Assembly: GCF_014644415.1 (NCBI RefSeq)
Contig: NZ_BMKQ01000001.1
Location: 124,001-188,000 of the forward strand
Origin: Marmoricola endophyticus
Lineage (GTDB): Bacteria > Actinomycetota > Actinomycetes > Propionibacteriales > Nocardioidaceae
Direction: 5' to 3'
DNA: 64,000 nt
The notes under the pieces are model-generated. The model did not search any database and had not been told where the DNA came from. It worked only from the letters and a program-made list of their open reading frames with translations. This document shows, one piece after another, positions 19,806 through 42,494 of the stretch. Within the stretch, counting starts at the first letter, position 1. Every line of letters starts with the position of its first letter. A program made the position numbers and the translations under genes.

Positions 19806-19887
19806 GGTCTCGACGTCCCTTCGACGCGCTCGCTTCGCTCGCTGCTCAGGACAGGCCTCGCTCGCTGCGCTCGCATCGGGCTCGACC
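19806..19887. repeat. modular repeat, long form (family A)
   Basis: Bounded by GGTCTCGACGTCC on the left and GGGCTCGACC on the right. The interior has CCTTCGACG, GCTTCGC and GCTCAGGACAGGC. The same boundary and interior words recur inside cobN (20544-20658) and, in reverse orientation, in cobI/J (40965-41049). Short forms without the interior occur at 34060 and 42473. It lies 64 bp before the cobN promoter. Confidence 0.7.
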
Positions 19888-19950
19888 GCCTGGTATCTGC
19901 GCTCGAGCGGCCCCCAGCGGGCGCGGGCGCCCCGTGCCCGGCGGCTCGAC

Positions 19951-19956
19951 TAGGCT
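19951..19956 (+). promoter_or_regulatory. -10 box (TAGGCT) of the cobN riboswitch leader
   Basis: TAGGCT lies just upstream of the cobalamin riboswitch. A start near 19963 would include the whole aptamer. Confidence 0.5.
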
Positions 19957-19962
19957 CGGCCG

Positions 19963-20100
19963 GACCGGCGTACGACGCGGGAACCCGGCGCGAGTCCGGG
20001 GCGGTTCCGCCACTGTGAGGGCCAGCACGACCGGCCCGAGCCAGACACCGCGCGTGCGCGTACCTCACTTCGACCAAGGGGGCGCGAACCCCCGGAGGAC
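19963..20100 (+). promoter_or_regulatory. cobalamin riboswitch controlling cobN
   Basis: The conserved aptamer words appear in order: GGGAACCCGGCGCGAGTCCGG (19980-20000 region), GCGGTTCC, the B12-box-like GCCACTGTGAGGG (20009-20021), and GAGCCAGACACC (20038-20049). Downstream, GGGGG (20078-20082) and CCCCC (20089-20093) form a hairpin immediately before GGAGG (20094-20098) and the ATG. That suggests control of translation initiation. Coordinates at the 3' side are approximate. Confidence 0.88.
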
Positions 20101-20103
20101 ACC

Positions 20104-23100
20104 ATGCGCATCGCCCTGCTCTCCACCTCCGACACCGACCTGCTCTCGGCGCGCGCTGCGCGCGAGCAGGGCGCCGACTACGTGTGGGCCAACCCGGCAC
20201 GGCCGGGGCACCAGTCGATGGCCGCCACGATCGAGGGGGCCGACCTCGTCGTCGGGCGGATCCTCGGCTCCCCGCAGGACCTGTGCAGCGGGTTCGCGAG
20301 GATCAAGGACACCGGGATGCCGATGGTCGTGCTCGGCGGCGAGCAGCAGCCGGACGCGGCGCTGATGGAGATGTCCAGCGTGCCGACCGGCGTCGCCACC
20401 GAGGCGCACCGCTACCTCGCCGAGGGCGGTCCGGCGAACCTCGCCCAGCTGCACGCCTTCCTCTCCGACACGGTGCTGCTGACGGGTGAGGGCTTCGAGC
20501 CCCCGGCGCAGGTGCCGGCGTGGGGTGTGGTGGAGCGGCCGGAGGTCTCGACGTCCTCCCTCGCTAACGCTCGGTCGGGCTCGACCACCTACCAGGGCTC
20601 GACCACCTACCAGGGCGCGAGCCCCGACAGCGCAGCGAGCGCTGAGTCGGCCTCGACCACTGACGGCGACCTCCCGCGCGTCGGCGTGCTGTTCTACCGC
20701 GCCCACCAGATGAGCGGGAACGACCGCTTCGCCCACGACCTGTGCGACGCGATCGACCGCACCGGGCGCGCGGTCGGCGTACCGATCTTCTCCTCGAGCC
20801 TGCGCAGCGCCCCCGACGACCTGTACGACGAGCTCGCGCGGCTGGACGCGCTGGTGGTCACCGTCCTCGCCGCCGGGGGTACGACGCCCGCCGGCGCCAG
20901 CGCGGGCGGCGACGACGAGGCGTGGGACGTCGAGCGGATGGCGGCCCTCGACATCCCCATCGTGCAGGGCCTGTGCCTCACCAGCAGCCGCGCCGAGTGG
21001 GAGGCCTCGGACGACGGGGTGACCCCGATGGACTCGGCCAACCAGATCGCGATCCCGGAGTTCGACGGCCGGATCATCACCGTGCCGTTCAGCTTCAAGG
21101 AGATCGACGAGGACGGGCTGCCCCACTACGTCGCCGACGCCGAGCGCTGCGACCGGGTCGCGGGCATCGCGGTCAACCACGCCCGGCTGCGGAGCATCCC
21201 CACGAAGGACCGCAAGGTCGCGCTGATGCTGTCGGCGTACCCCACCAAGCACAGCCGGATCGGCAACGCCGTCGGCCTGGACACCCCGGTCTCGACGATC
21301 CGGCTGCTGCGCCGGATGCGCGAGGCCGGCTACGACCTCGGCCCGGACGGCGCGATCCCGGGCCTCGACGTCGAGGACGACACCGTGGCCGGCGACACGC
21401 TGATCCACGCACTCATCGACGCCGGCGGCCAGGACGAGGAGTGGCTGACCCAGGGCCAGCTCACGGACGCCCACGTGCGCGTCAGCGCCCACGACTACAA
21501 GCGCTGGACCGCGGACGTGCCCGTCCCGCTCATGGAGGACGTGGTCGAGGCGTGGGGGCCTGCGCCCGGCAAGCTCTTCGTCAACGACGCCGACGAGATC
21601 GTGCTGGCCACCATCACCGCCGGCAACGTGGTGCTGCTGATCCAGCCGCCGCGCGGCTTCGGCGAGAACCCGGTCGCGATCTACCACGACCCGGACATGG
21701 CGCCGAGCCACCACTACCTGGCGGCGTACCGCTGGCTGAAGTACGGCTTCGGCGCCGACGCCGTCGTCCACCTCGGCAAGCACGGCTCGATGGAGTGGCT
21801 GCCGGGCAAGAACGCCGCGCTGTCCGCCGAGTGCGCCACCGACCAGGCGATCATGGACCTGCCGCTGATCTACCCGTTCCTGGTCAACGACCCCGGTGAG
21901 GGTGCGCAGGCCAAGCGCCGTGCGCACGCGACGATCGTGGACCACCTGGTGCCGCCGATGGCCCGCGCGGAGACGTACGGCGACATCGCCAAGCTCGAGC
22001 AGCTCCTCGACGAGCACGCCAACATCGCGGCGATGGACCCCGCGAAGCTGCCGGCGATCCGCCAGGAGATCTGGACGCTGATGCACGCCGCGGAGATGCA
22101 CCGCGACCTCGGCCTGGAGGAGCGCCCCGAGGACGAGGAGTTCGACGACTTCCTGCTGCACGTCGACGGCTGGCTGTGCGAGATCAAGGACGCCCAGATC
22201 CGCGACGGCCTGCACGTGCTCGGGCAGGCGCCCGACGGCGAGGCCCGGGTCAACCTCGTGCTCGCGGTGCTCCGTGCGGCCCAGGTGTGGGGCGGGGAGT
22301 CCGCCGCGGTGCCGGGACTGCGCACGGCCCTGGGGCTCAAGGAGGGCAGTGAGTCGACAGGTGCCGTCGACGAGATCGAGGAGCAGGCCCGCGGGCTGGT
22401 GCAGGCGATGGAGGACGCCGGCTGGGCGCCCGAGACGGCCGCGACGCTGAGCGACGTACCCGAGGTCCAGGCGAGCCTGCGCTTCGCGGCGCAGCACGTC
22501 GTACCCCGTCTCGCGCGGACCACCGACGAGCTCGACGCCGTGCTGCACGCCCTCGACGGCGGGTTCATCCCCGCTGGGCCGTCGGGCTCACCGCTGCGCG
22601 GCCTGGTCAACGTGCTGCCGACCGGGCGCAACTTCTACACCGTCGACCCGCGCGCCGTGCCGAGCCGGCTGGCGTGGGAGACCGGGCAGGCGATGGCCGA
22701 CTCGCTGGTCCAGCGCTACCTCGACGACACCGGGGACTACCCGTCGTCCGTGGGCCTGTCGGTGTGGGGCACGAGCGCCATGCGCACCTCCGGCGACGAC
22801 GTGGCGGAGGTGCTGGCGCTGCTCGGCGTACGCCCCGCCTGGGACATGGCCTCGCGCCGCGTGAACGACCTCGAGGTCGTCCCGCTGGAGGAGCTCGGCC
22901 GTCCGCGCATCGACGTGACGGTGCGGATCTCCGGCTTCTTCCGTGACGCGTTCCCCCACGTGCTGGCGATGCTGGACGACGCCGTGCGCATGGTCGCGGC
23001 GCTGGAGGAGCCCGAGGACCGGAACTACGTCCGCGCGCACACGCAGCGCGACCTCGCCGAGCACGGCGACGAGCGGCGCTCGACCACGCGGATCTTCGGC

Positions 23101-23808
23101 TCCAAGCCGGGCTCGTACGGCGCGGGGATCCTGCAGGTGATGGAGTCCGGCGACTGGCGCACCGACGACGACCTCGCGGAGGTCTACACCGCGTGGGGCG
23201 GCTTCGCCTACGGACGCGACCTCGACGGGCGCCCGGCCGCGGAGGACATGCAGACCAACTACCGGCGGATCAAGGTCGCGGCGAAGAACATCGACATCGC
23301 CGAGTCCGACATCGCCGACTCCGACGACTACTACCAGTACCACGGCGGCATGGTCGCCACCGTGCGTGCGCTGACCGGCGCCGACCCGCAGGCGTACGTC
23401 GGCGACTCCCGCTCGCCGGACAACGTGCGCACCCGCACGCTGCAGGAGGAGACCAACCGCGTCTTCCGCGCCCGGGTGGTCAACCCGCGCTGGATCTCCG
23501 CCATGCAGAAGCACGGCTACAAGGGCGCCTTCGAGCTCGCGGCGACGGTGGACTACCTGTTCGGCTTCGACGCCACGACGGGCGTGGTGCACGACTGGAT
23601 GTACGACACCCTCGCCAAGGAGTACGTCCTCGACGAGACCAACCAGGAGTTCATGCGCACCTCGAACCCGTGGGCGCTGCGCGGGATCGTCGAGAAGCTC
23701 AACGAGGCCGTCGAGCGCGGCCTGTGGGCCGACCCGGACGCCGAGGTCATGGCGCAGATGCAGGAGGTCTACCTCGACCTCGAGGGCGACCTCGAGGACC
23801 GCTCGTGA
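20104..23808 (+). CDS. cobN: aerobic cobaltochelatase subunit CobN
   Basis: 1234 aa, normal length for CobN. It inserts Co2+ into hydrogenobyrinic acid a,c-diamide in an ATP-dependent complex. Family sequences include GKHGSMEWLPGKNAALS, GLSVWGTSAMRTSGDDVAEVLALLGVRP, and the end NPWALRGIVEKLNEAVERGLW. Residues about 147-185 are an unusual low-complexity linker (GSTTYQGSTTYQG) encoded by a repeat element. A cobalamin riboswitch and a GGAGG site precede the ATG. The ATPase partner is the ChlI/D fusion at 34713-36806. Confidence 0.97.
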   Translation: MRIALLSTSDTDLLSARAAREQGADYVWANPARPGHQSMAATIEGADLVVGRILGSPQDLCSGFARIKDTGMPMVVLGGEQQPDAALMEMSSVPTGVATEAHRYLAEGGPANLAQLHAFLSDTVLLTGEGFEPPAQVPAWGVVERPEVSTSSLANARSGSTTYQGSTTYQGASPDSAASAESASTTDGDLPRVGVLFYRAHQMSGNDRFAHDLCDAIDRTGRAVGVPIFSSSLRSAPDDLYDELARLDALVVTVLAAGGTTPAGASAGGDDEAWDVERMAALDIPIVQGLCLTSSRAEWEASDDGVTPMDSANQIAIPEFDGRIITVPFSFKEIDEDGLPHYVADAERCDRVAGIAVNHARLRSIPTKDRKVALMLSAYPTKHSRIGNAVGLDTPVSTIRLLRRMREAGYDLGPDGAIPGLDVEDDTVAGDTLIHALIDAGGQDEEWLTQGQLTDAHVRVSAHDYKRWTADVPVPLMEDVVEAWGPAPGKLFVNDADEIVLATITAGNVVLLIQPPRGFGENPVAIYHDPDMAPSHHYLAAYRWLKYGFGADAVVHLGKHGSMEWLPGKNAALSAECATDQAIMDLPLIYPFLVNDPGEGAQAKRRAHATIVDHLVPPMARAETYGDIAKLEQLLDEHANIAAMDPAKLPAIRQEIWTLMHAAEMHRDLGLEERPEDEEFDDFLLHVDGWLCEIKDAQIRDGLHVLGQAPDGEARVNLVLAVLRAAQVWGGESAAVPGLRTALGLKEGSESTGAVDEIEEQARGLVQAMEDAGWAPETAATLSDVPEVQASLRFAAQHVVPRLARTTDELDAVLHALDGGFIPAGPSGSPLRGLVNVLPTGRNFYTVDPRAVPSRLAWETGQAMADSLVQRYLDDTGDYPSSVGLSVWGTSAMRTSGDDVAEVLALLGVRPAWDMASRRVNDLEVVPLEELGRPRIDVTVRISGFFRDAFPHVLAMLDDAVRMVAALEEPEDRNYVRAHTQRDLAEHGDERRSTTRIFGSKPGSYGAGILQVMESGDWRTDDDLAEVYTAWGGFAYGRDLDGRPAAEDMQTNYRRIKVAAKNIDIAESDIADSDDYYQYHGGMVATVRALTGADPQAYVGDSRSPDNVRTRTLQEETNRVFRARVVNPRWISAMQKHGYKGAFELAATVDYLFGFDATTGVVHDWMYDTLAKEYVLDETNQEFMRTSNPWALRGIVEKLNEAVERGLWADPDAEVMAQMQEVYLDLEGDLEDRS
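20544..20658. repeat. family A repeat inserted in frame in cobN
   Basis: Starts with GGTCTCGACGTCC, as at 19806, and ends with CCTCGACC. It holds two exact 18-bp tandem copies beginning GGGCTCGACC (20577-20594 and 20595-20612), each adding the six residues GSTTYQ. A later CGCAGCGAGCGCTGAG is related to the GC-rich interior of the other copies. The reading frame is kept throughout. Confidence 0.75.
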
Positions 23809-23832
23809 GCCCTCGCCGCGCCCCGGCTCGGA

Positions 23833-23846
23833 ACGTCGTACGACGT
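23833..23846. repeat. 14-bp perfect palindrome between cobN and cobF
   Basis: ACGTCGTACGACGT reads the same on both strands. It is followed by GGTCGCCAGGACGACC, a second inverted pair. This could be a small terminator or a protein site in the 61-bp gap. Confidence 0.35.
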
Positions 23847-23869
23847 GGTCGCCAGGACGACCAGGTCGT

Positions 23870-24661
23870 ATGACGTCCGAAGGCCCCGGACGCCGGATCC
23901 TGCTGATCGGGGTCGGTCCCGGTGATCCCGACCAGGTGACGCTCGAGGCGGTCGCGGCGCTGCGCTCGGTCGACTTCTTCGTCGTGTCGGACAAGTCCCC
24001 GCGCGGTGGGATGCCGGACCCGCTGGTCAACGCGCGCGAGCGGCTGCTGGACCGGCACCTGGACCGCGAGCCCGTCGTCGTACGCGTCGAGGACCCCGAG
24101 CGCGAGCGCCGGCCGGACCGGACCGCGAGCCCCGAGGCGTACGAGGCCGTCGTCGCCTCCTGGCACGAGGCGCGCGCGGAGGCGTTCGAGGCCGCGCTGC
24201 TCGAGCACGACGGCGACGCGGGTTTCCTGGTGTGGGGCGACCCGGCGTTCTACGACTCCACGATCCGGGTGGTGGGCCGCGTGCTCGCGCGCGGCAACGT
24301 CGACGCGTCGGTCGCGGTCGTCCCGGGGATCTCCTCGATCCAGCTGCTCGCCGCCCGGCACGGGATCGTGCTGCACGAGGTGGGGCAGGCGCTGCACGTG
24401 ACGACGGGTCGGCGGCTCCGCGACGCCGTCGAGGCTGGCCAGGAGAACCTCGTCGTGATGCTCAACCGCACCATCGACCTCGCCGGTCTCGAGGACTGGT
24501 CGATCTGGTGGGGCGCCAACCTCGGCACGGCAAGCGAGGAGCTGGTGGCCGGTCGGGTGGGCGACGTCCTGGGCGCCGTCGACGCCGCTCGCGAGCGGGC
24601 GAAGGAGTCGGCCGGCTGGGTGATGGACGTGTTCTGCCTGCGGCGGACGGGGGAGGCATAG
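23870..24661 (+). CDS. cobF: precorrin-6A synthase (deacetylating) CobF
   Basis: 263 aa. A SAM-dependent tetrapyrrole methylase with the N-terminal LIGVGPGDPDQVTLEAV and the CobF-specific features DFFVVSDKS, LVWGDPAFYDSTIRVV and VVPGISSIQLLAARHGIVLHEVG. CobF methylates C-1 of precorrin-5 and releases acetate in the aerobic pathway. The presence of cobF and cobG marks the oxygen-dependent route. It lies 61 bp after cobN and may be on the riboswitch-controlled transcript. Confidence 0.95.
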   Translation: MTSEGPGRRILLIGVGPGDPDQVTLEAVAALRSVDFFVVSDKSPRGGMPDPLVNARERLLDRHLDREPVVVRVEDPERERRPDRTASPEAYEAVVASWHEARAEAFEAALLEHDGDAGFLVWGDPAFYDSTIRVVGRVLARGNVDASVAVVPGISSIQLLAARHGIVLHEVGQALHVTTGRRLRDAVEAGQENLVVMLNRTIDLAGLEDWSIWWGANLGTASEELVAGRVGDVLGAVDAARERAKESAGWVMDVFCLRRTGEA

Positions 24662-24663
24662 CG

Positions 24664-25158
24664 ATGGCGCGCGACCCGATCGCGGAGGCCCGCCGCCAGT
24701 GGGAGGCTCACGGGTGGGGTGCCGCCGCGCCCGGCATGACCGCCGTGACCTCGGTGATGCGTGCCCACCAGCTGATGCTCACCGGCATCGACGCCACGTT
24801 GCGGCCGATGGGGCTGACGTTCGCCCGCTTCGAGCTGCTGCGGCTGCTGGCCTTCGCGCACGAGGGCCGGATGGCGATGGGCCGCGCCGGCGACCTGCTC
24901 CAGGTCCACCCGACGTCGCTGACGTCGCTGGCCGCCCGCTCGGTGGCCGACGGTCACGTACGCCGCCTCGACAACCCCGACGACGGCCGCTCGGCGCTGC
25001 TGGAGATCACGCCCGCCGGTCGCGAGCTGGTCGAGCACGCGACCGTGGCCCTCAACGCCGAGGTGTTCACCGCCATCGGGCTGGAGGAGGGTGACCTGGA
25101 GACCTTGGTCGCGGTGCTGGAGCGGTTCCGTACGTCCAAGGGGGACCGTGGCCGCTGA
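24664..25158 (+). CDS. MarR-family transcriptional regulator
   Basis: 164 aa. A winged-helix MarR domain: LTFARFELLRLLAFAHEGRMAMGRAGDLLQVHPTSLTSLAARSVADGHVRRLDNPDDGRSALLEITPAGREL, with the wing DNPDDGRS and ITPAGREL. It begins 2 bp after cobF. In sequence terms it does not belong to cobalamin synthesis. With the convergent enoyl-CoA hydratase next to it, control of an acyl or aromatic pathway is possible. Confidence 0.9.
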   Translation: MARDPIAEARRQWEAHGWGAAAPGMTAVTSVMRAHQLMLTGIDATLRPMGLTFARFELLRLLAFAHEGRMAMGRAGDLLQVHPTSLTSLAARSVADGHVRRLDNPDDGRSALLEITPAGRELVEHATVALNAEVFTAIGLEEGDLETLVAVLERFRTSKGDRGR

Positions 25159-25174
25159 GGCCCACCCCTGGAGA

Positions 25175-25951
25175 TCAGCGGTTCTTGAACTCCGGCTTCC
25201 GCTTCTCGACGAACGCCGCCATGCCCTCGGCCCGGTCCTCGAAGGCGAAGCAGGCGTGGAAGGCGCGCCGCTCGAACATCAGACCCTCGCGCAGCGTGGT
25301 CTCGAAGGCGCGGTCGACGGACTCCTTGGCGGCGTAGACGACCGGCAGCGACTTGGCGGCGATCTTGGCGGCGACGTCGGCCGCCGCGGTGAGCAGGTCG
25401 TCGGTCGGCACCACGCGCGAGACGAGGCCGTACGACGCTGCCTCCTCGGCGGAGAGCATCCGGTCGGTGAGCACGAGGTCCATCGCCACGGCCTTGCCGA
25501 CCGCGCGGGTCAGACGCTGGGTGCCGCCCAGACCGGGGATGATGCCGAGGTTGGTCTCGGGCTGGCCGAACTTCGCCGACTCGGCGGCGACGACCAGGTC
25601 GCACATCATGGCCAGCTCGCAGCCACCGCCGAGGGCGTACCCCGAGACGGCTGCGACCTTGGGTGTACGGACACCGATCAGCCGGTCCCAGTGCGAGATC
25701 ATGTCCTCGTTGACGACGTCGGCGTGCGACTTGGCCGACATCTCCTTGATGTCGGCGCCGGCGGCGAACGCCTTCGCCGAGCCGGTGAGCACGATCGCGC
25801 CGATGCCCGTGTCGGCGTCGAAGGCCTCCATCGCCGCGACGACCTCGCCCATCAGGGTCAGGTTGAGCGCGTTGAGCGCCTCGGGGCGGTTCAGCGTGAT
25901 GGTGCCGACGCGGCCGTCGGTGCTGACCTTGATGGTGGTGTAGTCGCTCAT
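25175..25951 (-). CDS. enoyl-CoA hydratase
   Basis: 258 aa. A crotonase with both catalytic glutamates: [13 protein letters not shown] (Glu112) and [20 protein letters not shown] (Glu132). The oxyanion-hole segment [11 protein letters not shown] is also present. It hydrates trans-2-enoyl-CoA in beta-oxidation. The ATG at 25951 begins MSDYTTIKV, and an upstream ATG 6 codons earlier (25969) is possible. It is isolated between a MarR gene and cobQ, not part of an obvious fatty-acid operon. Confidence 0.93.
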
Positions 25952-25982
25952 GTCGACACCCAACCACACGGGTGCGGGCCGG

Positions 25983-25988
25983 TAGCGT
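25983..25988 (+). promoter_or_regulatory. -10 box (TAGCGT) of cobQ
   Basis: TAGCGT ends 7 nt before the GTG at 25996, which predicts a leaderless cobQ-cobK mRNA. No riboswitch fits in this gap, so this operon is not controlled like cobN. Confidence 0.55.
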
Positions 25989-25995
25989 GCCGCTC

Positions 25996-27471: not shown

Positions 27472-27489
27472 AGGGCCGGTGACGGGGCC

Positions 27490-31554: not shown

Positions 31555-34007
31555 GGGAGCTCCTCGAGGGCGTGCAGCAGGCGGTCGGTGGTGGTCTCGG
31601 GGCGGACGGCGATCCGCACCCACGCGGGCCCGAGCCCGGGGAAGGTGTCGCAGCGGCGCACGGCGATCCCCGCCCTGCGCAGGCGTTCGTGCACGCCGTC
31701 GCCGAGCTCGGCGAGGACGTACGGTGCCGTGCTGGGCACGTGCCCGAGCCCGAGGTCGGCCAGGCCGGTCTCCAGGTACGCGCGCCAACGCGCGATCTGC
31801 TGGGCGCGGCGGTGTGCCTCGGTCCGCGCCGCCTCGCTGGTGGTCGCGACCAGCGCCGCGCACGCCTGCGCGGAGACCGACCACGGGGTCTGCTCGCGTC
31901 GCAGCGCGTCCACCACGGCGGACTGGCCGAGGGCGTACCCGGCACGTACGCCGGGCATGCCCCAGAGCTTGGTGAGGCTGCGGAGCACGACGAGCCCGTC
32001 GTACGACGTCGCCGCCAGCGACTCGCGCTCGCCGGGGACGGCGTCGAGGAACGCCTCGTCCACGACGACCAGCCGTCCGGGGCGCAGCAGCGCGGTGATC
32101 GCCTCGGCCGGGTGCAGCACGCCGGTCGGGTTGGTCGGGTTGCCGACGACGACGAGGTCGGCGTCCTCGGGGACTGCGTCGTCGTCGAGCACGAAAGGCG
32201 CGGACAGGCGTGCCTCGGTGACGGCGTGCCCCGCCTGCTGCAGCGCGGCGTGCGGCTCGGTGAACTGCGGGTGCACGACGACCGGCCGCCGCCACTCGCG
32301 CAGCCGCGCGATCAGCCCGAACGCCTCCGCCGCGCCCGCGGTGGCCAGCACCTCGTCGCGCTCCCGCCCGTGGCGCGCGGCGACCGCAGCCTCGGCGGTG
32401 CCCGGGTGCGGGTAGGCGCCCACCTCGTCCAGGCTCGTCCGCAGCGCCGCCTCGAGCCACGGCGGTCGGGGGCCGGGGTGCACGTTGACCGCGAGGTCCA
32501 GCACCGGGCCGTCCGCCGCACGCACCTCCGCGTCGCCGTGGTGCCGCAGCGGGTCGGCCGGTGGTTCGTCGGTGGTCCGCGAGGCGTCGCCCGCTGCGCG
32601 AGGCGTCGCGTGCACGCGACGCCTCGTGGGCTCGGGTGCGGGCCGGTGCGCATGGACGGCGTCGGCGAAGCGCTGGGCCAGCTGCGGGTGCCCGGCCCAG
32701 TGCACGTGGAGGTACGACGCGTGCAGCGCGGGTCCGGCGAAGCCGACGTCGGCGCCGTCGATGCGCCACGCCGGACCGAGGTCGCTAGAGGTCCCCGCCA
32801 CCGGCTCGGTGTGCGTGCGGTGGAACTCGTGGCCGGTGACGGTCTCGCCGCTGCGACCCAGCATCGAGTCGCCGCTCGCCGTCGCCTCGGGGTAGCGCAG
32901 CGTCAGCCGTCCGGTCATCGCCGCTTCGGCCCGCAGCGCTCCCACCATCGCCGTGCCGTCGAGGGTGTCGGCGAGGTAGAGCAGACCGGCGCACTCGGCG
33001 ACGGTGGGGACGCCGGCCGCGACGGCGGCGCGGAGCTCGCCCAGCAGCGCCCGGTTGTCGGCCAGCGCGGACGCGTGCACCTCGGGGAACCCGCCGCCGA
33101 GGTAGATCCCGCGCGTGCCCTCCGGCAGAGAACGGTCGGTGGTCGGGTCGAAGGTGACCACACGACACCCGGCAGCCTCGAGCAGCTCCTCGGTCTCGGC
33201 GTAGCGGAAGGTGAACGCGCGCCCCCCGGCCACCGCGACCACGGGACGCTCCGTCCCCGTCGGCGCCACCTCGACGGTCGGGTCCCACGGCTGGACGTCG
33301 AGGTCCGGGGCCGAGCGTGCCAGGGCGAGCACGGCGTCGAGGTCGACGTGCTCGGCGACCGCTGCGGCGAGGTGGTCGAGGGCGTGCGCGGCCTCCTCGC
33401 GCTCGGCGGCCGGGACGAGGCCCAGGTGGCGGCTCGGGGTCGAGAACGCCTCATCACGCGGGAGCACGCCGAGCACGGGGAGCCCGGCCGTCTCGATCGC
33501 GGTACGCACCTCCGCCTCCAGCCGGGGCGAGCCGACCTGGTTGAGCACGACGCCGCCGATCCTCGGGGCCCCCGGGTACGACGCCATGCCGTGCGCCACC
33601 GCCCCCACCGACCGCGAGGACCGCGACACGTCCACGACCAGCAGCACGGGGCTGGCCGTCAGGTGCGCCACGTGCGCGGTCGAGGAGAAGCCGGCACCGC
33701 CGACCCGGCCGTCGTACAGCCCCATCACGCCCTCGACGACCGCGACGTCGGCCGGGGTCGGCGTGTGCGCCCCGTGCAGCAGCAGCGGGGCGATCCGGTC
33801 CTCGCCGACGAGGTGCGGGTCGAGGTTGCGGCCGGAGCGTCCGCAGGCCAGCGCGTGGTATCCGGGGTCGATGTAGTCCGGGCCGACCTTGTGCCCGCTC
33901 ACGACGTGACCGGCGCGGGTCAGCGCGGCCATCAGGCCGGTCGCGACGGTCGTCTTGCCGGACCCGGTGGAGGGCGCGGCCACGACGAGCCGGGGGAGCG
34001 TGGTCAC
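31551..34007 (-). CDS. cobB: fusion of cobyrinic acid a,c-diamide synthase (CobB) and CobC/CobD-type aminotransferase-fold enzyme
   Basis: 818 aa from GTG 34007 (an in-frame GTG at 34034 would add 9 residues). Residues 1-450 are CobB: PSTGSGKTTVATGLMAAL P-loop, HKVGPDYIDPGYH, GGGFPEVHASALADN and amidotransferase CAGLLYLAD. Residues about 485-818 are a PLP-dependent fold I domain like threonine-phosphate decarboxylase: NPTNPTGVLHPAEAI, the PLP-lysine motif SLTKLWGMPGVRAGYALG, and WVRIAVRP. So amidation of the ring and aminopropanol-phosphate supply are joined. The linker (about 459-476) is encoded by a palindromic repeat. No clear ribosome site precedes either start. Confidence 0.92.
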   Translation of the reverse strand: MTTLPRLVVAAPSTGSGKTTVATGLMAALTRAGHVVSGHKVGPDYIDPGYHALACGRSGRNLDPHLVGEDRIAPLLLHGAHTPTPADVAVVEGVMGLYDGRVGGAGFSSTAHVAHLTASPVLLVVDVSRSSRSVGAVAHGMASYPGAPRIGGVVLNQVGSPRLEAEVRTAIETAGLPVLGVLPRDEAFSTPSRHLGLVPAAEREEAAHALDHLAAAVAEHVDLDAVLALARSAPDLDVQPWDPTVEVAPTGTERPVVAVAGGRAFTFRYAETEELLEAAGCRVVTFDPTTDRSLPEGTRGIYLGGGFPEVHASALADNRALLGELRAAVAAGVPTVAECAGLLYLADTLDGTAMVGALRAEAAMTGRLTLRYPEATASGDSMLGRSGETVTGHEFHRTHTEPVAGTSSDLGPAWRIDGADVGFAGPALHASYLHVHWAGHPQLAQRFADAVHAHRPAPEPTRRRVHATPRAAGDASRTTDEPPADPLRHHGDAEVRAADGPVLDLAVNVHPGPRPPWLEAALRTSLDEVGAYPHPGTAEAAVAARHGRERDEVLATAGAAEAFGLIARLREWRRPVVVHPQFTEPHAALQQAGHAVTEARLSAPFVLDDDAVPEDADLVVVGNPTNPTGVLHPAEAITALLRPGRLVVVDEAFLDAVPGERESLAATSYDGLVVLRSLTKLWGMPGVRAGYALGQSAVVDALRREQTPWSVSAQACAALVATTSEAARTEAHRRAQQIARWRAYLETGLADLGLGHVPSTAPYVLAELGDGVHERLRRAGIAVRRCDTFPGLGPAWVRIAVRPETTTDRLLHALEELP
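32579..32631. repeat. family B palindrome in frame in the cobB/C linker
   Basis: Two direct copies of GCGAGGCGTCGC, the second forming a perfect 28-bp palindrome at 32599-32626 (arms CGAGGCGTCGCGTG and CACGCGACGCCTCG). The same arms occur at 45291-45318 and 46364-46477. It is read in frame as RRRVHATPRAAGDASR between the CobB and CobC domains. Confidence 0.85.
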
Positions 34008-34059: not shown

Positions 34060-34078
34060 GGTCGAGCCTGTCGAGACC
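34060..34078. repeat. family A repeat, short form
   Basis: GGTCGAGCCTGTCGAGACC, whose complement begins GGTCTCGAC and ends GCTCGACC, the same boundaries as the long copies. It lies in the gap between cobO and the CobB/C gene. A near identical copy is at 42473. Confidence 0.65.
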
Positions 34079-34098
34079 CGGGGACCGGGCCAGGTCCC

Positions 34099-36806: not shown

Positions 36807-36849
36807 GTGAGGCTCCCGCTCGTTGCCAGGTCAGGGGTCGCGCGCGGGG

Positions 36850-36981
36850 CCGGTCTTCGGACTTCGTCGTCCCGCGTCCCGTGCCAGGACAAGGGCGACG
36901 TCACCGCAGCGGGCCTGTGCCGGAGTCTCACCGGCTTCCCAGATTCTCCCCGACCGGCGGACCGGCGGGGCACCTCGCGCC
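36850..36981 (-). promoter_or_regulatory. cobalamin riboswitch controlling the chlI/D-cobO-cobB/C-cobT-cobS run
   Basis: On the minus strand the words GGGAAGCCGGTGAGACTCCGG (36920-36940) and CAGGCCCGCTGCGGTGACG are followed by GAAGTCCGAAGACCGG (36850-36865). These match the cobalamin aptamer core (GGGAA..CCGGTG..A.TCCGG, CCCGC, then AGTCC.GA.ACC). The usual B12-box ACTGT is CTGCGGTGA here. The 5' and 3' limits are approximate. A TAGCGT -10 box lies just upstream. Confidence 0.85.
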
Positions 36982-36987
36982 GGGCAC

Positions 36988-36993
36988 ACGCTA
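36988..36993 (-). promoter_or_regulatory. -10 box (TAGCGT) of the second riboswitch leader
   Basis: TAGCGT on the minus strand would start RNA near 36981, just before the aptamer, giving a leader of about 175 nt to the chlI/D ATG. Confidence 0.5.
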
Positions 36994-37055
36994 CTCGCTC
37001 CCGGCGGGCGGCACCCGGGTCGCCCGGCACCGGCCTGCCCGGCGATGATGGGGCC

Positions 37056-38237
37056 GTGGCGAGTCTCGGGCGGAGCAGGAGCGTGACCTCGGGTGCCGGG
37101 CTGGCCACGGTGCTGGCGCTCCTGCTCGCGACCGGGTGGGCGGCCAACCACTTCTCGGCGCTCATCCCCGTCTACGGCGTGCGCGAGGACCTGTCGACCG
37201 CGCTGCTCGACGGGGCGTTCGGGCTGTACGCCCTCGGTCTGCTGCCCGGTCTCTTCGGCGGCGGCGCGCTCTCCGACCGGTTCGGACGTCCCGCCGTGGT
37301 GCTCCCCGGCGCGACGATCGCCGCGCTGGGCACCGTGCTGCTGATGGTCGACCACGTCGAGCTCGGCGTGCTCCTCGGCCGCCTCGTCGTCGGCCAGGGG
37401 GCCGGCCTGACCTTCGGCGCCGGCACCGCCTGGGCCGCCGACCTGGGCGCGACCCGCGGGACCGTGCTCGCCGGGGTCTTCCTCACCAGCGGCTTCGGGA
37501 TCGGTCCGGTCGTCAGCGGGGTGCTCGCCGAGTCGGCACCCGCGCCGCTGACGACGCCGTACGTCCTCTCGCTGGTGGTCTCCCTCGTCGCCGTCGCCGC
37601 TGCGGTGCTCGTGGCCGTGCCCGCCACTCCTCGGACCGACCCGTCCACCCGCCCGGCACCGCTGCCGCACCACGACGCGCGCACGGCGCTGGCGTGGTCC
37701 GGGCCCGTCGGCATCCTCGTCTTCGCCTCCGCGACCACCACGCTGGTGCCGCTGCCCGCCCGCCTGCCCGAGGAGTACGACGGCCCCGTGCTGGTCGGTG
37801 TCGCGGCCGCGCTGACGCTGTTCACCGGCATCGCCGTTCAGGCGCTCGCGCGGCGCGTGGCGGGCGGGGCCCGGACCGGTGTGCTCGGGGCCGGCTGCGC
37901 CGCCCTGGGCTGGGTGCTGGCCGCGGCCGGCGGGTCGACGATCGGGCTGCCGCTGTTCGTGGGCTGCTGCCTGCTGCTGGGCTCGGCGTACGGCCTGTGC
38001 CTGCGCGAGGGCCTCCTCGACGTCGAGACCCTCGCTCCGCCGGCGAAGCGGGGGACGCTGACAGGGGTCTTCTACGTGCTCACCTACCTCGGCTTCGGGC
38101 TGCCGCTGCTGCTCACCGCCGTCCAGCCGACGACCGGTGACGTGGCGCCGTTCGTGGTGCTGGCCGCGATCGCCGCGGCTGTCGCGGTGCTCCGCGTGGG
38201 CCAGCTGCGTCGAGGTCACCCGGGACGGCTCGCATGA
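37056..38237 (+). CDS. MFS transporter
   Basis: 393 aa, about 12 hydrophobic segments. The MFS motif A appears as GGGALSDRFGRPAVVLPG between segments 2 and 3, with GRLVVGQGAGLTFGAGTAWAADLG in segment 4. The substrate is unknown. It overlaps cobL by 4 bp, so transport linked to corrinoids or a precursor is possible but not shown. A GTG at 37083 is an alternative start. It diverges from the chlI/D operon. Confidence 0.88.
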   Translation: MASLGRSRSVTSGAGLATVLALLLATGWAANHFSALIPVYGVREDLSTALLDGAFGLYALGLLPGLFGGGALSDRFGRPAVVLPGATIAALGTVLLMVDHVELGVLLGRLVVGQGAGLTFGAGTAWAADLGATRGTVLAGVFLTSGFGIGPVVSGVLAESAPAPLTTPYVLSLVVSLVAVAAAVLVAVPATPRTDPSTRPAPLPHHDARTALAWSGPVGILVFASATTTLVPLPARLPEEYDGPVLVGVAAALTLFTGIAVQALARRVAGGARTGVLGAGCAALGWVLAAAGGSTIGLPLFVGCCLLLGSAYGLCLREGLLDVETLAPPAKRGTLTGVFYVLTYLGFGLPLLLTAVQPTTGDVAPFVVLAAIAAAVAVLRVGQLRRGHPGRLA

Positions 38238-39427
38238 TCCACGTCGTCGGGATCGGCGCGGACGGGTGGACCGTCCTGTCCGAGCGCCTGCGCACCCTGG
38301 TCCGCGAGGCCGAGGTGCTCCTCGGCGGGTCGCGGCACCTGTCGCTGGTCCCCGAGGTCCCCGGGCAGGAGCGGACGCCGTGGCCCAGCCCGCTGCGCGA
38401 CGCGCTCCCCGCGCTCCTGGACTCCTTCGGCAGCCGCCGCGTCGTGGTCCTGGCGTCCGGCGACCCGATGGTCTCCGGGATCGGTACCACCCTGGTGGAC
38501 TTGCTCGGTGCCGACCAGGTCGTCGTCGAGCCGGCCGTGTCCTCCGTCGCGCTGGCCCGGGCCCGGATGGGCTGGGCGGCGGAGTCCTGTGCGGTCGTCT
38601 CCCTCGTCGGTCGCGACGCGTCGGCGCTGCTGCGTGAGCTCGCACCAGGGCGTCGGGTGCTGGTGCTGTGCGCGGACGAGACGACGCCCGCGACAGTGGC
38701 CGCGCTGCTCGTCGAGGCGGGTGCGGGCGAGAGCAGGATGACCGTGCTCGGCGACCTCGGTGCCGCGGAGGAGTCGCGGAGCGACGGGCTCGCCGCCACC
38801 TGGGGCGGCGACTCCCCGCGGCTCGCGGTGCTGGCGGTCGAGGTCGTACGCCCGACCGGACCGGCGACGTCGTGGGCCCCCGGGCTCCCGGACGACTCGT
38901 ACGAGCACGACGGGCAGCTGACCAAGCGCGACCTGCGCGCGTCCGCGCTGTCCCGCCTTGCGCCGGCCCCCGGCCAGCTGCTCTGGGACGTCGGTGCCGG
39001 TGCCGGCTCGGTCGGGATCGAGTGGATGCGAGCGCACCCGACCTGCCGCGCGGTCGCCGTCGAAGCGGACGCCGAGCGCGCCGCGCGGATCGGCCGCAAC
39101 GCGGCACGGCTGGGCGTACCCGGGCTGAGCGTCGTGCACGGCGGCGCTCCCGGCGCGCTGGTGGGGCTCGACGCGCCGGACGCCGTCTTCGTGGGCGGGG
39201 GAGCGACCCGGCCGGGCGTGCTCGACAGCGTGCTCGGTGCGCTGCGGCCCGGTGGGCGGCTGGTGGTGCACGGGGTGACGGTGGAGACCGAGCGGCTGCT
39301 GGCGGAGGCCTACGCGTCGTACGGCGGCGAGCTCACCCGCCTGCACGTCGAGCACGCCGAGCCGATCGGGTCCTTCACCGGCTGGACCCCGGGGCGCGCG
39401 GTCACCCAGTGGGCGGTCGTCCGGTGA
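38234..39427 (+). CDS. cobL: precorrin-6Y C5,15-methyltransferase (decarboxylating) CobL
   Basis: 397 aa, a natural fusion of CbiE (about 1-200, HVVGIGADGWTVLSERLR, LASGDPMVSGIGTTL) and CbiT (about 215-397, LTKRDLRASALSRLAPAPGQLLWDVGAGAGSVGIEWM, the SAM site). It methylates C-5 and C-15 and removes the acetate carboxyl. The ATG overlaps the MFS stop by ATGA, and cobM overlaps its end. Confidence 0.96.
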   Translation: MIHVVGIGADGWTVLSERLRTLVREAEVLLGGSRHLSLVPEVPGQERTPWPSPLRDALPALLDSFGSRRVVVLASGDPMVSGIGTTLVDLLGADQVVVEPAVSSVALARARMGWAAESCAVVSLVGRDASALLRELAPGRRVLVLCADETTPATVAALLVEAGAGESRMTVLGDLGAAEESRSDGLAATWGGDSPRLAVLAVEVVRPTGPATSWAPGLPDDSYEHDGQLTKRDLRASALSRLAPAPGQLLWDVGAGAGSVGIEWMRAHPTCRAVAVEADAERAARIGRNAARLGVPGLSVVHGGAPGALVGLDAPDAVFVGGGATRPGVLDSVLGALRPGGRLVVHGVTVETERLLAEAYASYGGELTRLHVEHAEPIGSFTGWTPGRAVTQWAVVR

Positions 39428-40170
39428 GCGCCGTCCACTTCGTCGGTGCGGGGCCGGGCGCCGCCGACCTGCTGACGCTGCGGGCCGCGGCGCTGCTGGG
39501 CGAGGCCGACGTCGTGCTCTACCCCGGCACGTACCTCGACGCCGACGTGCTCTCGCACTGCCCGCGTGCCCGGCTGGTCGACACCCAGGGTCTCGACCTC
39601 GACCAGATCACCGCGGTGGTGGTCGAGGCGCACGGTGACGGGCTCGCCGTCGTACGCCTCACCTCTGGTGACCCGTCCGTCTACTCCGCGCTGCACGAGC
39701 AGACCGCCCGGCTCGACGCGGCCGGGGTGCCATGGGACGTGACGCCGGGCGTGGCGTCGTACGCCGCCTCGGCCGCGCTCGTCGGCGCCGAGCTCACCGT
39801 CCCCCTGGTGGCGCAGTCGGTCGTGCTGACCCGGGTGCAGGCGCGCTCGACCGCGATGCCCGACACCGAGTCGCTGACCGCCTTCGCGGCCACCCGCGCG
39901 ACGCTGGCGATCCACCTCGCGATCACCCGTGTGCGCGAGGTGATGGCCGAGCTCGCGCCGGCGTACGGCGAGGACTGCCCGGTCGTCGTCGTCCACCGCG
40001 CCTCCCAGCCCGAGGAGCTGGTGCTGCGCGGCACCGTCGCCACGATCGCCGCCGCCGTCGAGGCCGCTGGCCTGCGGCAGGCGGCGGTCATCCTCGTGGG
40101 CCGGGCGCTGGCTCCGCGCGACGCCGGCGAGTCCCACCTCTACGACCCCGCCCGCCTGCGTAGTCCCTGA
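39424..40170 (+). CDS. cobM: precorrin-4 C11-methyltransferase CobM
   Basis: 248 aa. FVGAGPGAADLLTLRAAALLGEADVVLYPGTYLDADVL, LTSGDPSVYSALHEQ and VVVHRASQPEELVLRGTV are CobM/CbiF features of the SAM-dependent tetrapyrrole methylase fold. The GTG overlaps the cobL stop (GTGA). Its stop codon lies inside a 60-bp inverted repeat shared with the convergent cobI/J gene. Confidence 0.96.
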   Translation: MSAVHFVGAGPGAADLLTLRAAALLGEADVVLYPGTYLDADVLSHCPRARLVDTQGLDLDQITAVVVEAHGDGLAVVRLTSGDPSVYSALHEQTARLDAAGVPWDVTPGVASYAASAALVGAELTVPLVAQSVVLTRVQARSTAMPDTESLTAFAATRATLAIHLAITRVREVMAELAPAYGEDCPVVVVHRASQPEELVLRGTVATIAAAVEAAGLRQAAVILVGRALAPRDAGESHLYDPARLRSP

Positions 40171-40220
40171 CGTTTCGGCGGACAAATCGGGACACGGAAC
40201 CACCAGAACGTCAGGGACTA
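40161..40220. repeat. 14-bp inverted repeat with 32-nt interior at the cobM/cobI-J junction
   Basis: Arms TAGTCCCTGACGTT (40161-40174) and AACGTCAGGGACTA (40207-40220) are perfectly complementary. Both stop codons lie in the arms (cobM TGA 40168-40170, cobI/J at 40211-40213). It may serve as a bidirectional terminator. The interior is less GC-rich than its surroundings (GACAAATCGG), unlike normal terminators here. Confidence 0.7.
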
Positions 40221-41788
40221 CCCGCCTCGGGGACGAATCGGGCGGTCCACACGGCGCCGGATGACGTCACGCGCGTGCCGGTCGAGCCGACGATGAGCAG
40301 GCACTTCATGTCGATGCTCGTGGGGTCGAGGTCGGCGAGCGTGGTCACGACCAGCGACTCCTCGGCACGGCCCACGTCGCGCCCGACGACGACGACCGTC
40401 TCGGGGCCGCGGTGCTCGAGGAGGACCTCACGCATCCGCACCACCTGTTCGCGGCGCGAGCGCGACGCGGGGTTGTAGACCGCGAGCACCAGGTCGACCG
40501 CCGCGATGGCACGCAGCCGCTGCTCCACGACCTCCCACGGCTTGAGCCGGTCCGAGAGCGACACGACGGCGAAGTCGGCCCCCACCGGGGCGCCCGCGCG
40601 AGCGGCCACGGCCTGTACCGCAGAGACGCCGGGCAGCACCCGTACGGCCACCGCGTCGTACGCCGGATCGCTCGCGGCCGCCTCGTACACCGCCGAGGCC
40701 ATCCCGAACACGCCCGCGTCGCCGCCGGACACGACCGCGACCCGCTCGCCGCGCAGCGCCAGGTCCAGTGCGAACCGTGCGCGGTCGACCTCGACGGTGT
40801 TGCCGCTGGCGTGCCGCTGCAGCCCGGCACGCTGGGGGACGCGGTCGACGTACGGCGCGTAGCCGACCACGTGCTCCACCGACGCCAGTGCCGCCGAGAC
40901 CTCCGGCGTGAGCCAGTCGTCGGGACCGGGACCGAGCCCGACGACGAGCAGCTCGGCGGGCTCCGGCCTCGACGACCGCTCCTCGCTGCGCTCGCTGCCT
41001 GTCCTGAGCTCGGCTGAGCTGGCGAAGCCGTACGTCGAAGGGCTCGACCTCCGTGCGTCGTAGCGAGCTCCGCGGCTGTCGCCGGGCACCACGATCAGGG
41101 AGAAGTACGGCACCTCGTCCGGGTCGACCTCGGCCACCGGGCGCCACTGCTCGCCGGGCATCGAGGCGCGCTCGACGTACACCGCGTCCGCGAGCCGGCC
41201 CGCCTGCTCCAGGGCCGAGCGGACGGCGGGGAAGGTGCGGCCCAGCTTCATGATGATCGCGCCGTCGGTGTCGGCCAGCCGCCGCGCGAGCTCGGGCTCC
41301 GGCAGGGTGCCGGGCAGCACGGTGAGGACGTCGGTCTGGCGTACGAGCGGCGTCGCGGTGAGCGCGGTGGCGGCGACGAACCCGGGCACGCCCGGCACCA
41401 CCTCGGTCGCGAAGTCGGGGGACAGCCGGTCGTGCATGTACATCGCCGAGCCGTAGAACAGCGGGTCTCCCTCGGCGAGGAGGACGACCGTCCGCCCGGC
41501 CGACAGGTGGGAGCGCAACCGCTCGGCCGAGGCCTCGTAGAAGTCCGCCATCGCGCCGGCGTACCCGCCCGGGTGGTCGGCCACGCCCGTCGTCACCGGG
41601 TAGCGCAGCTCCTCCTCGAGCGTCCCTCCCGGGATCAGGTCGGCCACGATCCGTCGCGCGTGCGACTCCTTGCGCACGCCGGCGTGGTACGCGACCACGT
41701 CGGCCTCGCCGATCAGCCGGGCGGCCTTGCGGGTGACCAGCTCGGGGTCGCCGGGGCCGACGCCGACGGCGAAGAAGCGGCCGGTCAC
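40211..41788 (-). CDS. cobJ: fusion of precorrin-2 C20-methyltransferase (CobI) and precorrin-3B C17-methyltransferase (CobJ)
   Basis: 525 aa. Residues 1-235: CobI, AVGVGPGDPELVTRKAARLIGEADVVAYHAG, LLAEGDPLFYGSAMYMHDRL, VPGVPGFVAATAL. Residues about 278-525: CobJ, LLVVGLGPGPDDWLTPEVSAAL, VVSGGDAGVFGMASAVYEAA, YNPASRSRREQV, VGRDVGRAEESLVVTTLADLD. The CobI-CobJ fusion is common in actinobacteria. The linker (about 246-275, including SSPSTYGFASSAELRTGSER) is encoded by a family A repeat. The GTG start at 41788 is 8 bp from the cobH stop. Confidence 0.96.
   Translation of the reverse strand: MTGRFFAVGVGPGDPELVTRKAARLIGEADVVAYHAGVRKESHARRIVADLIPGGTLEEELRYPVTTGVADHPGGYAGAMADFYEASAERLRSHLSAGRTVVLLAEGDPLFYGSAMYMHDRLSPDFATEVVPGVPGFVAATALTATPLVRQTDVLTVLPGTLPEPELARRLADTDGAIIMKLGRTFPAVRSALEQAGRLADAVYVERASMPGEQWRPVAEVDPDEVPYFSLIVVPGDSRGARYDARRSSPSTYGFASSAELRTGSERSEERSSRPEPAELLVVGLGPGPDDWLTPEVSAALASVEHVVGYAPYVDRVPQRAGLQRHASGNTVEVDRARFALDLALRGERVAVVSGGDAGVFGMASAVYEAAASDPAYDAVAVRVLPGVSAVQAVAARAGAPVGADFAVVSLSDRLKPWEVVEQRLRAIAAVDLVLAVYNPASRSRREQVVRMREVLLEHRGPETVVVVGRDVGRAEESLVVTTLADLDPTSIDMKCLLIVGSTGTRVTSSGAVWTARFVPEAGSP
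40965..41049. repeat. family A repeat in frame in the cobI/J linker
   Basis: Read on the minus strand it has CCCTTCGACG, GGCTTCGCC, GCTCAGGACAGGC and GCGAGCGCAGCGAGG. The words CCTTCGACG and GCTCAGGACAGGC are shared exactly with the intergenic copy at 19806-19887. It encodes residues between the two methylase domains. Confidence 0.75.
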
Positions 41789-41795
41789 AGCGCGC

Positions 41796-42494
41796 TCACT
41801 CCGCGTCCTGGGCCAGCGCGTTGAGCGCCGAGGAGGTGATCGCCGAGCCGCCGCGGCGCCCACGCACGGTGACGTACGGGACGTCGATGCCGTGGTCCGC
41901 CGCCAGCCTGGTCAGCGCGTCCTTGGACTCCGCCGCACCGATGAAGCCCACCGGGCAGCCGATGATCGCCGCCGGTCGCGGGGCGCCCTCGATCAGCATC
42001 TCCATCAGGTGGAACAGCGCGGTCGGGGCGTTGCCGATCGCGACCACCGCGCCCTCGAGGTACGGCGCCCACAGCGAGACCGCGGCTGCCGTCCGCGTCG
42101 TGCCCCAGGCCCGGGCCAGGTCCGGCACCTCGTCGGCGCCGAGGAAGCAGTGCACCTCGTTCCCGCTCGGCAGGCGACCCGAGGTGACGCCGACGGCGAC
42201 CATCCGCGCGTCGCACAGGATCGGTGCCCCCGACTCCAGGGCCGCGCGCCCCGCGGGGACCAGCTCCGGGTGGACGACGAGGTCGTCGACGAGATCGGTC
42301 TGCCCGGTGCCGTGGATCATCCGTACCGCCAGCCGCTCGGCCGACTCCGGCACCCGGGAGAGGTCGGTCTCGCGCCGGATCGTGGCGAAGGAGTCGACGT
42401 AGATCGAGGGGCCGCTGCGGACGTACTCGTAGTGCCGCGCCGGAGGCCGGGGGCCGCTTCCGCCCTCGCGCTGGTCGAGCTTGTCGAGACTCAC
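41796..42494 (-). CDS. cobH: precorrin-8X methylmutase CobH
   Basis: 232 aa from GTG 42494. The core is canonical: YVRSGPSIYVDSFATIRRETDLSRVP, the catalytic histidine in AVRMIHGTGQTDLVDDLVVHP, ILCDARMVAVGVTSGRL, IGNAPTALFHLMEML, IIGCPVGFIGAAESK. It moves a methyl group from C-11 to C-12 to give hydrogenobyrinate. The first residues SLDKLDQREGGSG are not part of the family core and are encoded by a short family A repeat. The start overlaps the cobG stop. Confidence 0.95.
   Translation of the reverse strand: MSLDKLDQREGGSGPRPPARHYEYVRSGPSIYVDSFATIRRETDLSRVPESAERLAVRMIHGTGQTDLVDDLVVHPELVPAGRAALESGAPILCDARMVAVGVTSGRLPSGNEVHCFLGADEVPDLARAWGTTRTAAAVSLWAPYLEGAVVAIGNAPTALFHLMEMLIEGAPRPAAIIGCPVGFIGAAESKDALTRLAADHGIDVPYVTVRGRRGGSAITSSALNALAQDAE
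42473..42490. repeat. family A repeat, short form, at the cobH start
   Basis: GGTCGAGCTTGTCGAGAC differs from the copy at 34060 by one base over 18. On the minus strand it directly follows the cobH GTG codon and encodes SLDKLDQ. Confidence 0.65.

Follow-up and report, generated by a model that had tools for sequence, protein, structure and literature searches.

Hairpin repeats in the cobalamin region of Marmoricola endophyticus and small GIY-YIG nucleases as their probable mobilizers

The 64,000-nucleotide stretch of Marmoricola endophyticus DNA analyzed here (hereafter the window; C1:124001-188000 of a 3.66-Mb genome of 22 contigs and 72% GC) contains cobN and a cobI/cobJ fusion gene, together with copies of a short palindromic repeat that lie in the gaps between genes as well as inside these two cobalamin genes. 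We describe this repeat family, the pairing that defines it and its association with genes encoding small GIY-YIG nucleases, which hairpins of this type bracket in this and many other bacteria and whose products are candidates for the enzyme that spreads it.

Copies in the window and in the genome

An initial annotation of the window had proposed several copies with common boundary words, in long and short forms, and had considered a modular, REP-like (repetitive extragenic palindromic) element. The copies are real and lie where they had been placed (table 1), and their REP-like, modular and copied nature is supported by the genome-wide data given below. Those starting at 19806, 20544, and 34060 (the last in reverse) are bounded by exact GGTCTCGAC…GCTCGACC pairs, whereas the one at 40965 starts with GGCCTCGAC (GGCC), not GGTCTCGAC; the short copy, thought to span 42473-42490, is present but degenerate, because it has AGTC instead of GGTC. 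The cobN copy had been drawn as a single unit of 20544-20658 but consists of a 43-bp element, the remainder of a duplication and a second, degenerate element. The words CCTTCGACG and GCTCAGGACAGGC do occur in the long forms, where they belong not to the outer frame but to a second hairpin (arms CCCT/AGGA) nested in the first; the composite in cobI/J likewise holds a nested CCCTTCGAC…GCTCAGGA hairpin, in reverse, at 41002-41042. Short and long forms thus have one frame and differ by their loop contents, the short form being that with a minimal loop.

Table 1. Repeat copies and neighboring features in the window (window coordinates), and GIY-YIG genes elsewhere on the contig (C1 coordinates)
Feature	Position	Strand	Remarks
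Long nested element, gap before cobN	19806..19887	+	Outer frame GGTC-TCGAC…GCTC-GACC; inserted second hairpin CCCT-TCGAC…GCTC-AGG
Inner (nested) hairpin CCCTTCGAC…GCTCAGGA of the 19806 element	19817..19851	+	One arm mismatch
43-bp element (class M2) inside cobN, variable inter-domain linker	20544..20586	+	Reading frame stays open
Rest of the cobN insert	20587..20658	+	End of tandem duplication and degenerate second element ending GGCCTCGACC
18-bp tandem duplication within the cobN insert	20577..20612		In frame
Short 19-bp element GGTCTCGAC-AG-GCTCGACC, intergenic gap	34060..34078	-	
Long composite element, linker of the cobI/cobJ fusion gene (gene on - strand)	40965..41049	+	Left boundary GGCCTCGAC
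Degenerate short element AGTCTCGAC-AA-GCTCGACC	42473..42491	-	First codons of the gene at 41796-42494 (own gene calls)
Cobalamin riboswitch (RF00174)	19978..20050	+	The 19806-19887 element ends about 90 bp before it
Cobalamin riboswitch (RF00174)	36831..36992	-	
GIY-YIG nuclease gene 1	C1:712514-712816		Bracketed by 46-bp elements
GIY-YIG nuclease gene 2	C1:787488-787799		Bracketed by 43-, 36- and 61-bp elements

The three exact pairs of the window compare with none in 100 dinucleotide shuffles of it, and a relaxed scan found 10 places (shuffle mean 1.15, maximum 6), three of which (26812, 30639, and 52266) resemble chance matches. Over the whole genome, 236 GGTCTCGAC…GCTCGACC pairs with 0-30 bases between them were counted, and none with the reversed pattern. 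Single words are common at this GC content, which might have favored an explanation by chance or GC bias; the reversed and shuffled controls refute it, and we give it practically no credence.

Anatomy and placement were read in a contiguous 1.2 Mb, roughly one third of the genome. The length classes are few: 19 bp (two bases between the boundaries), 36 bp (M1), 43 bp (M2), 46 bp, and longer copies, in some of which another hairpin, with arms CCCT/AGGG or similar, is nested. The left inner junction of the 19806 composite recurs at C1:50677, 624800, and 886000, and blastn with this composite found nine similar places elsewhere in the genome; the nested composite itself has therefore been copied. 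Among 116 elements (a set that leaves out five pattern lengths, 34, 51, 79, 91, and 92, resembling chance coding matches), 106 are intergenic, 9 fall within genes, and 1 overlaps the end of a gene, according to our own gene calls, which occupy about 90% of the DNA. Neighboring elements are less than 200 bp apart in 56 of 115 cases, and the 17 M1-M2 neighbor pairs listed are all in opposite orientation, as in bacterial interspersed mosaic elements (BIMEs). The exact core of the 36-bp type had no match in a scan of GTDB contigs that possibly did not include the window genome itself.

Across 197 genomes of the family (Nocardioidaceae), the number of GGTYTCGAC…GCTCRACC matches ranges from 0 to 299, and from 0 to 262 in the genus of the window genome, elements being patchy among congeners. 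Sites without the insert, on which the initial annotation had made the case for a mobile element depend, are found in relatives: the cobN insert, which lies in a variable linker, is absent in 17/17 congeners aligned, and the cobI/J insert is absent in 17/17 congeners aligned at that site. Among the congeners aligned, the window genome alone has the element at these two cob sites. A different, longer insert occupies the same cobI/J linker in genome G075. The cobI/J linker peptides LLVEPVETRR and SVVEEGAQRLSRNPG of loci L130 (G043) and L132 (G107) resemble, at the protein level, translated hairpin elements, so that this linker may have been hit several times.

GTAG REPs are paired with REP-associated tyrosine transposases (RAYTs), which carry a Y1 domain. 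A RAYT was the first candidate considered as mobilizer, and it was rejected: PF01797 (the Y1/RAYT transposase domain) has no match at E≤1 in the genome, and Y1_Tnp is nearly absent from the family, with matches in 2/197 genomes, which have 6 and 2 elements. The initial annotation could not have seen the probable partner, which lies beyond the window and is a gene for a GIY-YIG nuclease, not for a classical transposase. Remnants of a RAYT system that has lost its transposase would account for the REP- and BIME-like architecture, with a tag at one end and inverted pairs; such an origin is very improbable given that the tag is not GTAG, that Y1_Tnp is so rare in the family and that the gene bracketed encodes a different nuclease.

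A different palindromic family, GCGAGGCGTCGCG…CGCGACGCCTCGC, is found in the window at 32577-32630, 45269-45363, and 46358-46477; its word GAGGCGTCGCG occurs 23 times on both strands of the 1.2 Mb.

Pairing within the element

On the purine strand, one or two Watson-Crick pairs alternate with tandem G·A mismatches (GAG…CGA), as in GGTC-GA-GC-CC-GA-CC-GA-GC-loop-GC-GA-GG-GA-GG-ACGTC-GA-GACC. The pairs between the constant GA steps covary (CC/GG, GC/GC, CT/AG, GT/AC). Strict pairing is found in 24 of the 27 sequences in which GA flanks a two-base step, against a mean of 10.3 and a highest value of 18 in 5000 permutations; two-base steps without a GA boundary are paired in 14/17 cases and one-base steps in 3/3. 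A further pair spans a one-base bulge: in 281 of 348 distinct elements beside GIY-YIG genes, which were picked using neither the bulge nor the covarying pair, the base that follows GAG pairs with the one two positions ahead of CGA (mean 112 and maximum 139 in 2000 shuffles), and the skipped base is T in 259 elements. The element also has an unpaired tag at one end. For arm GGTC, the 5' flank of the purine strand reads C (86%), G (98%), N, T (87%), and the 3' flank is unconserved; the 5' tag is approximately CGNT for six of the seven arms shown, the exception being GGCC (7 elements), and its first base is weak in the 36- and 43-bp types of the window genome.

Covariation was used because the folding energies of the long types are unremarkable. 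The 19-bp type folds better than shuffles as DNA (z -3.01, -2.54) and, on both strands, as RNA (z -2.69, -2.48), as does the purine strand of the 43-bp type as RNA (z -2.45); RNA folding of the other long types is less marked (z -0.49 to -1.40). The RNA folding of the 43-bp type would suit hairpins kept as selected RNA or DNA structures (terminators, mRNA stabilizers or nucleoid sites) that regulate the bracketed GIY-YIG gene, as would their location between genes, 26 of the 116 falling in convergent gaps (16.8 of the 122.7 kb of gap DNA). We nevertheless consider this explanation rather improbable, because copy number varies so widely among relatives, because both orientations are present (36 vs. 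24 in co-directional gaps) and because a selected function would hardly account for nested copies or for inserts inside cob genes.

Two broader scans were set aside. An arm-free scan for TCG…CTC rose only weakly above its reversed control in the 1.2 Mb (944 versus 590 with 4-bp arms), and the motif alone is therefore not specific genome-wide. A scan for alternating mismatches gave 43 matches for G·A; AG gave 11, GG 18, and three Markov controls 7-9. Since the copies are not independent, it was given no weight.

Hairpins beside GIY-YIG nuclease genes

The repeat family is strongly associated with GIY-YIG genes, both by linkage and by co-occurrence. Elements lie within 350 bp on both sides of 3/1127 genes in the 1.2 Mb; two of these three encode 100-aa GIY-YIG nucleases (table 1) and the third is the neighbor of one of them. 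The protein of the gene at C1:787488-787799 carries PF01541, a domain that scores 71.8 bits in the protein of locus L154 (Pfam cut-off 22.6). The catalytic residues Y5, Y15-V-G17, R25, H29, and E62 are invariant across 19 aligned GIY-YIG rows. In the PDB, a profile of the relatives is closest to the UPF0213 proteins 1zg2 (E 2.4e-21) and 1ywl, and weakly matches Slx1 structures (E 0.004).

GIY-YIG relatives were found in 104/197 family genomes, namely in 46/50 of those with at least 20 elements and in 58/147 of those with fewer (p 1.9e-11); all 32 genomes with at least 50 elements have the gene. One-sided rank tests inside genera gave p values of 0.0014 (g1), 0.0002 (g6), and 0.0049 (g19), and of 0.059 to 0.1 in three small genera. 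With a broader pattern that admits other frames, the gene is present in 65/70 genomes with at least 120 hits and in 39/127 others (four thresholds were tried, all with p below 1e-6).

At the 30 best family loci, searched for arm-TCG…CTC-arm' with arms starting GG, elements are present on at least one side in 30/30 and on both sides in 29/30, the matches of L183 and L177, with GGCC arms, being doubtful (the L183 sequence has GATC-arm hairpins); four control word pairs occur on both sides in 0, 1, 0, and 0 loci. The density is 132 elements in 24 kb of GIY-YIG flank versus 26 in 140 kb of congener cobN and cobI/J loci. The nearest element is on the expected strand in 25/29 cases upstream and 26/30 downstream, at median distances of 85 and 39 bp (the orientation of L167 does not rest on its protein), and the gene therefore lies between inverted copies.

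A set on named contigs comprises the best 80 of 578 loci, those with the most similar proteins, 78 of which have usable flanks. When any arms are allowed, hairpins are found on both sides in 68/78, and control words in 22, 5, 1, 0, and 0. The longest inverted word common across the gene has a median length of 15, against 9 for the flanks of different loci. Loci with hairpins on both sides belong to Anaerolineales, Caldilineaceae, Treponema, Fibrobacter, Chryseobacterium, Arenibacter, and many Actinomycetota; at L226, L243, and L261 there are no hairpins beside the GIY-YIG gene. The kind of pair (C-G, T-A, or G-C) follows the GIY-YIG tree, with 24 changes versus 48.2 when shuffled (110 proteins, 105 of them labelled, L189 evidently translated in a wrong reading frame). 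Nocardioidaceae alone require 10 frame changes versus 23.6 (54 proteins, that is, 58 without near-identical rows; 52 labelled). No shuffle out of 200 was as low as observed in either test. Nocardioides sp. Root682 has two GIY-YIG genes, L188 and L220, that differ in hairpin frame; at L188 the hairpins are on the upstream side only.

In Azospirillum, the gene and its hairpins are present or absent as a whole. They lie together between sufB and sufC in Azospirillum lipoferum 4B, the only one with more than the flanks among the 12 Azospirillum matches listed; three relatives, 95-98% alike in the matched flanks, are without the unit in the alignment. In two Sphingobium strains such a unit occupies a site at which TomTYG64 carries just one CGTC-like hairpin; TomTYG72 lacks both unit and hairpin there. 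The gene that precedes the 787-kb nuclease is conserved at 80-87% identity in nine congeners of the window genome, the match ending before the nuclease; six of these congeners have no GIY-YIG match at all, and the match is on another contig or far away in G004, G060, and G089.

Proteobacterial hairpins, possible mobilization, and known systems

Matches in plasmid records brought proteobacterial and other relatives, and 21 loci were hand-picked from the match lists. Hairpins of the form CGTC/TGTC-stem-loop-stem, often with a CCA tail, lie on both sides in 10/19 proteobacterial loci (two Sphingobium, Novosphingobium, Sinorhizobium meliloti, Azospirillum, Rhizobium CIAT894, Neorhizobium, two Shinella, and Neisseria). 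A CCTC variant is found on both sides of the gene in Sinorhizobium C101, and TCG…CTC hairpins on both sides in two Methylobacterium and in Sphingomonas parapaucimobilis; the Planktothrix locus has TCG…CTC hairpins as well. In three 50-kb stretches centered on GIY-YIG genes, CGTC/TGTC hairpins lie within 350 bp on both sides of 3/133 coding sequences (CDS), which are the three GIY-YIG genes, and of 0/130 others (the CDS 47962-48975 of the third stretch, with no CGTC hairpin near it, is outside this count). CGTC/TGTC tags proper are found at alphaproteobacterial, Neisseria and some distant loci, the tag of the window family being CGNT. The distant loci L308 and L309 join a TGTC tag with a GAG…CGA core, a mixture from which it follows that the two hairpin styles are probably related.

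Two side observations concern GIY-YIG genes of a plasmid and of phages. In a Planktothrix agardhii plasmid (L275), the gene lies between an MmeI-like gene and the DISARM gene drmA, with three TTCTTCGTTTCACTCAGAA copies around it. Large Rhizobium phages, for example MN988525 (H75), encode a GIY-YIG relative at 47-49% identity.

The flanking proteobacterial hairpins agree with the CGTC REPs described by Di Nocera et al. (2013; PMC3733652), which according to that paper lack a dedicated transposase, occur mostly in alphaproteobacteria and also in Neisseria, and are equated there with the Neisseria dRS3 and the Rickettsia elements named RPE-4/RPE-6. The words Actinobacter*, Nocardioid*, Micrococc*, and GIY do not occur in its main text. 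Among the matches listed in PubMed Central open texts (preprints and most subscription papers are outside this scope), there was no report linking GIY-YIG genes to REP hairpins. In Caulobacter, three small COG2827 genes are on record, one of them with an SOS box (PMC1839093). A Moraxella paper lists a RAYT and a GIY-YIG gene among clade-specific genes.

Because hairpins lie on both sides of the GIY-YIG gene in so many unrelated bacteria, this nuclease is the best candidate for the enzyme that spreads them. We think it likely that the repeats are nonautonomous REP-like hairpins spread by a small stand-alone GIY-YIG nuclease of the UPF0213/COG2827 type. Its part in recognition, cutting and copying we infer by analogy with RAYTs and REPs. 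The element is defined on one strand, by a 5' tag (approximately CGNT), a covarying arm and tandem G·A mismatches from GAG…CGA; next come a bulge of one base, most often T, another pair that covaries, and a loop, either short or holding another hairpin. The nuclease would probably recognize this hairpin in single-stranded or cruciform DNA and cut at the tag, and repair would then copy the hairpin elsewhere, mostly into intergenic gaps and sometimes in frame into protein linkers.

Several observations weigh against this proposal. No GIY-YIG match was obtained in 4 of the 50 family genomes that have 20 elements or more; two of these four are less than 90% complete. G095, with 149 elements, has a single match, a fragment with two in-frame stops (G095:C144:14694-14867), and its element population looks as if it had outlived its enzyme. 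G105, G151, and G046 each have 20 or more elements with the frame seen in the window, yet hairpins of another frame flank the one GIY-YIG gene found there, so that enzyme and repeat do not correspond one-to-one; 14 of the 30 family loci inspected also carry a frame other than the window's beside the gene. Hairpins are missing on one or both sides in 10/78 of the named-contig loci, 22/78 are bracketed by the control words CTC…TCG, and among distant relatives drawn phylum-wide an inverted word of at least 16 bases spans the gene in 7/27 loci, a draw that leaves out two loci too short to score. CCTC hairpins lie on one side only in Rhizobium tumorigenes, no such hairpins were seen at the Sphingomonas paeninsulae, Acidiphilium, Salinivibrio, and Variovorax loci (4/19), and the B. 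subtilis yazA copy examined is not bracketed by them. Most forks are open in both protein trees, which are poorly resolved, and DNA folding of the 36- and 43-bp types is no better than that of shuffles on either strand (z 0.12 to 0.39). Finally, no target-site duplication is readable at the inserts, where the adjoining sequence is too diverged and most species are represented by one genome.

Some of these points could also be read as signs of another spreader, be it another transposase or the copying of single-stranded hairpins during replication or repair, with the GIY-YIG protein as a housekeeper that resolves or trims hairpins and its gene bracketed as cargo. The four genomes without the gene and the three whose gene has a frame unlike the abundant one agree with this, as do the weak profile match to Slx1 and a review that assigns YhbQ and YazA to the family of Slx1, a nuclease selective for DNA structure (PMC7017083). 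On the other hand, the bracketing is regular, inverted and close, and the frame follows the protein tree inside one family, none of which a housekeeper would need, and the Y1 transposase is nearly absent; we regard this alternative as unlikely.

Returning to spreading by the GIY-YIG nuclease itself, we incline, if only slightly, toward a wider proposition, in which small stand-alone GIY-YIG nucleases of Actinomycetota, Chloroflexota, Bacteroidota, Spirochaetota, Fibrobacterota, and Pseudomonadota would form a second, hitherto unrecognized class of dedicated REP mobilizers. Unrelated to RAYTs, they would recognize a structural code made up of the 5' tag, the G·A tandem, the bulged base and the covarying pair. 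The enzyme that the CGTC REPs have so far lacked, and with it that of Neisseria dRS3 and of some Rickettsia palindromes, would be among them. The GIY-YIG nuclease fold is known for repair, restriction and homing; if this proposition is true, it gains a further role, that of mobilizing hundreds of hairpins scattered over each genome, through a recognition code open to tests with oligonucleotides, and the in-frame inserts in metabolic enzymes such as CobN and CobIJ would be explained. The 2013 survey by Di Nocera et al. (PMC3733652) left open the identity of the enzyme that mobilizes the CGTC REPs; the present data name a small, concrete and testable candidate and connect this candidate with a far broader range of hairpin repeats.

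Compared with known systems, the window family resembles REPs in its high copy number, mainly extragenic location, unpaired tag at one end and inverted pairs; its main classes of 19, 36, 43, and 46 bp compare with REP units of about 20-40 bp, nested copies being longer. With CGTC REPs it has in common short hairpins, a 5' tag at one end, frequent head-to-head pairs and no dedicated RAYT. Its tag is approximately CGNT, whereas theirs is CGTC (or TGTC, CCTC), its stem is broken by G·A mismatches and a bulge, and its loops are longer or nested; the paired 8-9 bp stem starting AT with a loop of 4-5 that characterizes CGTC REPs is not seen in the window elements. GTAG REPs and BIMEs with their RAYT (TnpA-REP) are similar in having tagged hairpins, inverted pairs and a bracketed gene for a small nuclease, but differ by the tag, by an enzyme of an unrelated superfamily and by the absence of any Y1 match in the window genome.

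Rickettsia palindromic elements insert in frame into protein-coding genes, and the hairpin inserts of cobN and cobI/J are like them in this respect, in another host. As for the enzyme, the single-domain GIY-YIG proteins of UPF0213/COG2827 (1zg2 and 1ywl; E. coli YhbQ and B. subtilis YazA) are of the same family by sequence, from which the yazA copy mentioned above departs by its lack of bracketing hairpins. GIY-YIG homing endonucleases offer a further parallel, in that a GIY-YIG nuclease would, as proposed here, serve a mobile element. Homing enzymes have an additional DNA-binding region and a single allele as target, whereas here a bare domain of about 100 aa is encoded beside hundreds of dispersed hairpins.

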